Source of the DNA: Symbiodinium natans
Taxonomy: Eukaryota; Sar; Dinophyceae; Suessiales; Symbiodiniaceae
Reading direction: 5' to 3'
Assembly (NCBI GenBank): GCA_905221605.1
Contig: CAJNDS010001446.1
Location: forward strand, 286,927-350,926
DNA length: 64,000 nucleotides
Shown: positions 50,972 to 52,441 of the stretch, in pieces
Numbering within the stretch: the stretch's first letter is position 1
Layout of the letters: each line of letters begins with the position of its first letter
Notes under the pieces: generated by a model
What the model saw: only the letters and a program-made list of their open reading frames with translations
The model's database searches: none
Told to the model about the DNA's origin: nothing
Translations under genes and position numbers: made by a program

Positions 50972-51020
50972 GTGAACCCTGAACCCTGAACCCTGAACCC
51001 TGAACCCTGAACCCTGAACC
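50972..51020 (-). repeat. Variant array CCCTGAA
   Basis: Seven near-perfect copies of CCCTGAA, ending directly at the 5' edge of the retrotransposon fragment. Confidence 0.93.
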
Positions 51021-52265
51021 ATGAAGTAGTTTGGAGGGGCATTGTGCCGTCAGCTGATCAGCACATTGATCGTGCTGAGATTTTGGCTGCTGCTGTTGCG
51101 TGCTCGGCGTTTCGGCGGGCCAGTGTTTATTCTGACTCTAAATATGTAGTTCAGGTGGCTCGTGCCATCCTTCAACAGCTAAAGCAGGGTGTAAATCCCC
51201 AGCTGCCTCAAACAAACTTGGACTGCTGGCTATTTTTCTTGAATGCTGTTCGTGGGGCTGATGTGCAAAATTTGGATGTCGTAAAGGTCAAAGCCCATCA
51301 GGATTGGAAGCAACTTCAGGGAGTTGAGCGGTGTCTCGTGTGGTATAACGGGTTAGCTGATATGGTTGCGAAGTCTACAGCTCGTCAGTTTAGTCAGGTT
51401 CTCCCGGGCTACTCCCAGCTGATACAAAGTTTCTTTCAGTTGCAACAGAATGCTGAAGTAATTATGCGTTACCATGCTGACATTGCATGGTGCGCAGTTC
51501 ATGGTTCCAAGCCTGAAGTCAAGGTTTCTGCGCCTGTCCCACTCAGCGCTTCAAGTTTTCAGGGTGACGGTGAAGAGTATTGGAAACCACCTTCTGTTCA
51601 AGTAGACGAATGCGAAGATTCTCCCCATCCGAAGTTCATGGCGACACTTAGTAAATGGCTACTCCAACTGCGTTGGTTTCCTTCAACCGGAAACGGTACT
51701 TTTCAGGATACGTCTTGGCTTGAATTGATGTGGTTCTTTGTGTGGAGCACGAGATGCAGTGTTCCGGTTCTGGTTGAAGGAAAGTATGTTACCAGAGGTG
51801 AAACTGCCGACTTTGTGCTTGTGGAACCTACGACTGTACAGCTGTTGAAAACGTTTAGGTATTTTATATCCCGTATTGAGGCGAGATTTCAAAGCGCCTT
51901 TGTTCCACATGTCAAAGTCAAAACCACCGATTCGACCGCAAAGCTGAGTTGGTCGCAGCGCACACCCGGTTTGACAAGCAGGCCATGTCATGAGTCCTTT
52001 TGTTTCCATGTGGCTTTTGTCGACCTTCGTAGGCAATTAGCAACTAAGACATCGGTAAAGAGGCCAAACTTGTCATTCCGACCTGACTTGTGAGATATGA
52101 ATTCATTGTTAATTCGTTTTGGATAATTCGTTTCTTGATGTCGGCTCGTTAATTTGGTGCTTAATTTCGTTGAGGCGTTGTCTCGGACTGACATTGTACA
52201 AAAGGCATAGAGGCCCGCATCGCTAGCCTCCTTGCCCGTGGATCGACCGACCACACAAGTCCGGA
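51021..52265 (+). mobile_element. 5'-truncated non-LTR retrotransposon end inside a telomeric array
   Basis: The fragment comprises an RNase H-type C-terminal coding part (to TGA at 52,093) and about 170 bases of AT-rich 3' tail. It starts directly after CCCTGAA repeats and ends at GTCCGGATG just before AACCCTGAACCCTAAA. There is no poly(A) at the junction. Both flanks are telomeric repeats of the same orientation, so it lies within one array. The sense 3' end faces CCCTAAA, which fits priming of reverse transcription by a TTTAGGG 3' end. The truncation falls inside the RNase H domain. The RT and endonuclease parts are absent from the window. Confidence 0.75.
51023..52093 (+). pseudogene. RNase H domain and C-terminal part of a retrotransposon polyprotein
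   Basis: The open frame begins EVVWRGIVPSADQHIDRAEI, which fits the second strand and first helix of an RNase H1 fold with the catalytic Glu in RAE. It continues VYSDSKYVV (catalytic Asp), VVKVKAHQDW (His of the active-site loop) and WYNGLADMVAKS (last catalytic Asp). The first catalytic Asp, which lies just upstream in this fold, is cut off. About 230 residues follow without a domain I know, including WLLQLRWFPSTGNGTFQDTS and ELMWFFVWSTRCSVPVLVEG. In dinoflagellates many LINE-type elements carry RNase H after RT. An LTR-element RNase H is less likely given the 3' structure. The frame is intact over 350 codons, so insertion is probably not very old. Confidence 0.75.
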
Positions 52266-52441
52266 TGAACCCTGAACCCTAAACCCTAAACCCTAAACCC
52301 TAAACCCTAAACCCTAAACCCTAAACCCTAAACCCTGAACCCTAAACCCTAAACCCTAAACCCTAAACCCTAAACCCTAAACCCTAAACCCTAAACCCTA
52401 ACCCGTAAAACCCTAAATCCTAAACCCTAAATAAACCCTAA
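52266..52441 (-). repeat. CCCTAAA array at the 3' end of the retrotransposon
   Basis: About twenty-four units, the first CCCTGAA. The array starts right at the element's 3' end. Confidence 0.97.

Follow-up and report, generated by a model that had tools for sequence, protein, structure and literature searches.

The locus and its truncated element

The window analysed here is the whole stretch of 64,000 nt, in which 39 heptamer arrays of both orientations are found between 43.0 and 62.9 kb. In this part lies a LINE copy, truncated at its 5' end and bordered by an array on each side (Table 1).

Table 1. Parts of the element copy in the window and of its flanks
Feature	Position	Strand	Remarks
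Short dispersed repeat before left array	50784..50972	.	40 assembly matches, 39 confined to positions 10-116
Left target array	50973..51019	+	CCCTGAA units, oriented as the element
Left copy of 14-bp duplication GAACCCTGAACCCT	51002-51015	+	Inside left array
5'-truncated LINE copy	51020..52266	+	Exact start between 51016 and 51020
Open frame, 360 codons	51011..52093	+	First codons array-derived; partial RNase H, then ~240 aa
Pfam RNase_H match	51053..51379	+	Profile positions 38-139, E 1.3e-6
3' tail, 173 bases	52094..52266	+	Ends ...ACAAGTCCGGAT, without poly(A)
Right target array	52267..52431	+	Starts with GAACCCTGAACCCT, then mostly CCCTAAA units
Right copy of 14-bp duplication GAACCCTGAACCCT	52267-52280	+	Start of right array

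The open frame is closed by a TGA stop at 52093 and contains the RNase H motifs RAE, YSDSK, KAHQ and NGLAD, as described in an earlier note made from the letters of this DNA. The note had also placed the 5' cut of the element inside RNase H. Consistently, the Pfam match starts only from profile position 38, so that the window copy lacks the beginning of the domain. The CCCTGAA repeats at the 5' edge, the CCCTGAA/CCCTAAA repeats at the 3' edge and the lack of poly(A), all reported earlier, are seen directly in the window. The final bases of the element are ...CCGGAT at 52266, and GAACCCT is next.

The ~240 aa encoded 3' of RNase H (51380-52090) gave no Pfam match, and by eye this product looks like the C-terminal end of proteins from distant LINE families in the same genome. 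With the window ORF as the query, a PDB search returned no match at E 0.1. The tRNA and Rfam scans of the whole window gave no matches, and no special RNA fold was detected in the 3' tail (z 0.15) or before the left array (z 0.34). No relatives were found in the viral and prokaryote collections; pattern hits of 16-17 nt, three in number, were attributed to chance. The sequence before the left array, whose 3' end resembles that of the LINE by eye, was considered as a second LINE end and rejected. In 175 of 1000 shuffles the score was equally high, and what is repetitive in it is a short dispersed repeat that occurs 39 more times in the assembly, three copies of which were read.

The flanking arrays alone are little proof, because 39 of them in both orientations crowd this part of the window. 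It takes the element's other copies in the assembly to answer the worry that such a neighbourhood could arise by chance.

A near full-length relative

After the query had been extended by upstream DNA, a protein search of public data identified P0003, a protein of 1606 aa which matches 99% of the fragment at 94% identity. The homology of the window copy to P0003 begins at about 51017-51020. P0003 is near full length and carries a LINE-type reverse transcriptase (RVT_1, 39.2 bits against a Pfam cut-off of 29.6), a domain absent from the window copy itself, and its RNase_H match is also over the cut-off. The endonuclease match is weak (Exo_endo_phos, 22.8 bits) and stays under the Pfam cut-off of 24.5 bits. 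When five other LINE families of the same genome were scanned for Exo_endo_phos, L035 passed (32.8 bits), L037 and L034 were under the cut-off, and L041 and L051 had no match at E 0.01.

In the PDB search, the best solved relative of P0003 was L1 ORF2p, and 8gh6 and 8ibw, which we take to be R2, were weaker (E 0.012). A profile of the CCCTAAA-joining families described below found L1 ORF2p first and R2 second. No chain named TRAS1 or R1 was among the matches listed (seven for P0003 and the best 60 of 63 for the profile). Among 23 related proteins, one is named Symbiodinium microadriaticum and two are labelled Skav, presumably Symbiodinium kawagutii, which points to a dinoflagellate of the Symbiodiniaceae as the probable host.

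Most copies of the family end in the same repeats on both sides

The assembly (759 Mb, 2543 contigs) was searched with the 3' tail as the query, and 20 further places matched the tail of the window copy. All 21 places were scored and read. The identical last 3' bases were reached in 17 of the 21 copies (one of the 17 has a GGAC ending), and L017, L030, L031 and L032 stop 2 to 17 bases short of the common 3' end. An exact CCCTRAA unit in the same orientation was present in the 40 nt past the 3' end in 15/17 copies, with L022 and L024 as the exceptions. The earlier reading, in which the element has a fixed 3' end and its sense strand continues into the CCCTAAA strand, is therefore supported for the family. 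The outcome which that note had set against its own reading, other copies ending mostly in unrelated sequence or poly(A), was not observed, and poly(A) was found at the 3' end in 0/17 copies reaching the common end.

The shared GAACCCTGAA is possibly element-encoded and was left out of one 3' tally. Past it, a same-orientation unit (at most one mismatch) was found within 40 nt in 16/17 copies versus a background of 26.8%, and a reverse unit in 1/17 (L014) versus a background of 28.6%. In the right flank of L014, the repeats reverse direction after one CCCTGAA.

The 5' junctions are spread over many positions along the element, and these variable 5' ends agree with the proposal that the truncation came from incomplete reverse transcription. 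An exact same-orientation CCCTRAA unit was present at the 5' junction in 17/21 copies (all except L016, L018, L024 and L029), and a reverse unit in 1/21 (L016). L030 and L031 have shared flanks and may be one insertion, which would make the 5' tally 16/20. The background for the exact unit in the same loci was 13.2% in the same orientation and 14.5% in reverse, and it was ~1% in positions 1-41 kb of the window; these loci and the 41 kb are the source of the background, which is not a random genome sample. Both junctions thus lie in telomere-type repeats, in one orientation and in many copies.

The telomere-type unit at the 5' junction was confirmed with one correction, that it is mostly CCCTGAA and not plain CCCTAAA. 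Near the 5' junctions the ratio of CCCTGAA to CCCTAAA units was 25:3, versus 92:784 elsewhere in the loci, where units within an array are non-independent.

Target duplication

The duplication was tested in 15 of the 21 copies (L016, L017, L029, L030, L031 and L032 were left out) by comparing the 14 bases after GGAT with the 5' junction at the best of several offsets. The agreement was 14/14 in L012, L013, L015, L020, L021 and L026 and 13/14 in L024, L025 and L028, which gives at least 13/14 in 9/15 copies. Lower agreement (6/15) was obtained for L022 (12), L014 (11), L019, L023 and L027 (10 each) and L018 (8). High agreement is expected within repeats, and right flanks were therefore dealt out anew among the copies. 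The total agreement was 184 versus a permutation mean of 174.6 (11.6 of 14 per copy) and a maximum of 183, and the observed total was reached in 0/5000 permutations.

Four of the six perfect copies show the plain GAACCCTGAACCCT, which is obtainable from any such array; copies with variants private to their site tell more. L013 has the private variant GAACCCTGAATCCT at both left and right. L021 has the private variant GAACCCTGAACCTT at both sides, with a few extra bases between the duplication and the element. L024 occupies a non-array site with GAACTCT at left and right, where the agreement is exact over 7 bases; extending it to 14 takes one mismatch and an overlap with the element. In L014 only 8 duplicated bases are visible, so a 7 bp duplication is possible in some copies. 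By these comparisons, the target duplication has a length of 14 bp, equal to two heptamers, in most of the copies that could be tested. The features of LINE insertion, namely 5' truncation, a common 3' end and target duplication, are all present.

Probable insertion into interstitial heptamer arrays and its alternatives

The 3' heptamers could belong to the element itself as a simple-repeat tail, such as some LINEs carry instead of poly(A), and the insertion would then be untargeted. The first unit is CCCTGAA even in several copies with CCCTAAA after it, so the heptamers may be partly element-encoded. However, the 5' flank is beyond the making of any tail, and it carries the same heptamers in most copies. 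The private variants of L013 and L021 stand at both sides of the element, and L024 at its degenerate site has no tail, its GGAT being followed by GAACTCTAAAGCC. An own tail is a very unlikely source of these junctions.

Less probable still is that the arrays were added or joined later, when telomerase healing or break repair caught LINE fragments in arrays. Arrays do enter older DNA in this genome. The LINE body of L016 (the same place as L009) is interrupted by a TTTAGGG-type array of ~85 nt, which suggests that an array can itself be the inserted piece, as happens in break repair. In contrast, the common 3' end, the variable 5' ends, the one orientation and the duplication of private variants are marks of target-primed insertion. 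Healing at the 3' end would also give TTTAGGG on the sense strand, and 16/17 copies have the opposite.

The C-rich telomeric strand after the sense strand would equally suit an element primed by an open chromosome end in the HeT-A/TART fashion, but heptamers at the 5' junction too, the target duplication and a median distance of 133 kb to the contig end (contig ends being possibly not chromosome ends) make this the least credible of the alternatives. The telomere priming suggested in the earlier note is accordingly kept as a LINE aimed at telomere-type repeats and given up as priming by a chromosome end. The target appears to be interstitial arrays, because in most copies heptamers flank the element on both sides and the target is duplicated, and only 1/21 copies is located less than 10 kb from a contig end; the assembly may lack copies that lie in true telomeres.

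As far as its sequence can tell, the family is located in short interstitial telomere-like arrays in one orientation, with the common 3' end usually joined to GAACCCT. Target-primed reverse transcription into arrays of heptamers, close to the CCCTGAA variant, is very probably how it inserts. The endonuclease of the element would nick the G-rich strand at AGGGTTC/AGGG, and the 3' end of the repeat set free in this way would prime reverse transcription of the RNA, possibly with the RNA end paired to the repeat. The duplication would result from a second nick, made in the top strand at a distance of 14 nt. We are highly confident that the window fragment is a 5'-truncated copy of such a site-specific non-LTR retrotransposon, and this confidence is meant for the whole explanation, with the proposed steps included.

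Other LINE families of the same genome

When P0003 was compared with the assembly, long ORFs of other LINE families were found at 23-29% identity (29 of 698 candidates were scored), and longer copies of the window's own family may exist in this genome. By their 3' ends, with end words picked by eye, 22 of the 27 loci L034-L060 could be sorted, and L034, L036, L050, L052 and L053 were left unsorted.

The CCCTAAA-joining kind comprises eight loci of seven families, which end in ...GCAT or GCGT and continue with AAACCC. At least three CCCTRAA-like units (one mismatch allowed) were present in the 40 nt after the end in 8/8 of these loci, of which L045 and L047 are one duplicated insertion. The TTTAGGG-joining kind comprises six loci of three families, which end in ...TAAAGG followed by TTTAGGG-type repeats. 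At least one unit was found in 6/6 and at least two units in 5/6 of them, and poly(A) was not seen at the ends read. The eight control loci end in ...GTGATA, GCGTGATA, GTGCTATA or GTGAGATATAT. They had a CCCTRAA-like unit in 0/8, but at least one TTTAGGG-like unit in 4/8.

Tail searches, with counts taken from match ends and flanks unread, extended these observations. A CCCTAAA-joining tail gave 99 candidates, 40 of which were scored; 39 of the 40 reached at least 20 nt into CCCTAAA, and the more diverged of the 40 belong partly to other families of that clade. With long element matches only, which the repeat cannot have favoured, the count was 23/24. For a TTTAGGG-joining tail, 13/14 matches reached at least 14 nt into TTTAGGG. 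For a control family, 0/13 other copies matched beyond the element end; nine stop exactly there and four earlier. One 5'-truncated CCCTAAA-joining copy, duplicated together with ~10 kb at two places, has the array on its 5' side as well.

The RT tree was built from 24 rows after seven near-copies were dropped, with P0007-P0025 unused and without outside reference. The CCCTAAA-joining families formed one clade (97/95), the TTTAGGG-joining families together with the unsorted L036 a separate clade (100/99), and five control families a third clade (100/99). P0003, which represents the family of the window, stood apart with P0004-P0006 (100/99), and L034, labelled non-target in the tree, was placed weakly near this group (82/84). 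Given the separate clades, heptamer targeting has either more than one origin or a history of loss and switching, and both would fit this tree. Judged by their ends, other LINE clades appear to target heptamers as well; the CCCTAAA-joining clade shares the orientation of the window's family, and the TTTAGGG-joining clade faces the other way. For the CCCTAAA-joining sister lineages, the corresponding nick would be at AGGGTTT/AGGG.

L037, L039 and L040 are 99.5-99.6% identical over 6.3-6.7 kb. Such near-identical long copies suggest recent activity, and some pairs may be segmental duplicates, like L045 and L047.

Several other features of these loci were observed. L045 with L063 and L047 with L062 mark a duplicated segment of ~10 kb, shared by contigs C2493 and C1446 and 99% identical, and this similarity stops inside a heptamer array. 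L034 is a LINE with an ORF of 1689 aa and a (GT)n-rich microsatellite on its 3' side. L044 and L055 belong to LINE families ending in GTGTGCTATA, and the end of L055 runs into TATAGGGCTTATAGGGC repeats, which are perhaps another repeat-specific target.

Comparison with known telomere-associated elements

Telomere-associated retrotransposons are described in insects, fungi, Giardia, green algae (Chlorella), rotifers and a lizard in the available part of PMC10088271, in which the word dinoflagellate is absent. The dinoflagellate telomere is given as TTTAGGG in excerpts of three papers (PMC11453091, PMC11508785, PMC9498494). Non-LTR elements in dinoflagellates are mentioned in the accessible parts of PMC7789003 and PMC12014239, and "telomer" does not occur in the latter. 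Among the titles and abstracts of open-licence papers listed, there was no dinoflagellate heptamer-specific LINE.

With several such lineages inserted in opposite directions, this probable Symbiodiniaceae genome would bring the alveolates into the list. Lineages in both orientations would give a natural series for studying how the target choice of endonucleases evolves, and heptamer-targeting lineages would be relevant to the scattered occurrence of telomere-type arrays in the genome. A much wider picture can be drawn, in which at least three LINE lineages specialised on heptamers in both orientations would, together with break-repair insertion, drive a genome-wide traffic of interstitial arrays and might land in true telomeres or help to maintain them. 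This picture is speculative and, taken as a whole, unlikely.

HeT-A and TART of Drosophila are LINEs whose 3' end joins chromosome-end DNA. In contrast to their attachment at chromosome ends without target duplication, the family described here is found in interstitial arrays and with a duplication. The MoTeR/FoTeR elements of fungi likewise have many truncated copies, and their 3' ends are followed by several TAACCC repeats, which the authors read as target-primed reverse transcription in the portion of PMC12857005 at hand. The same portion assigns them a restriction-like endonuclease, whereas the match here, which in P0003 is weak, is to Exo_endo_phos (APE-type), and the copies are interstitial.

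TRAS of Bombyx mori, a member of the R1 clade in a host with TTAGG telomeres, is likewise a LINE in telomeric repeats that is joined to the C-rich (CCTAA) strand, and the endonuclease of TRAS1 cuts TT/AGG, the same relative place as the nick proposed here (PMC7265360, in part). Unlike TRAS, the present family occupies a TTYAGGG repeat in another host, has RNase H and is found in interstitial arrays; its junctions are mostly at the G variant, with a 14-bp duplication and without poly(A). SART of Bombyx mori is inserted in the opposite orientation in the repeats, in parallel to the TAAAGG/TTTAGGG lineage here. According to the same excerpt of PMC7265360, SART1 joins poly(A) to AGG, whereas the TTTAGGG-joining lineage here is without poly(A) at the ends read. 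Likened by its junctions and by the place of the proposed nick, and not by clade, the family would thus resemble TRAS and SART rather than elements primed by chromosome ends.
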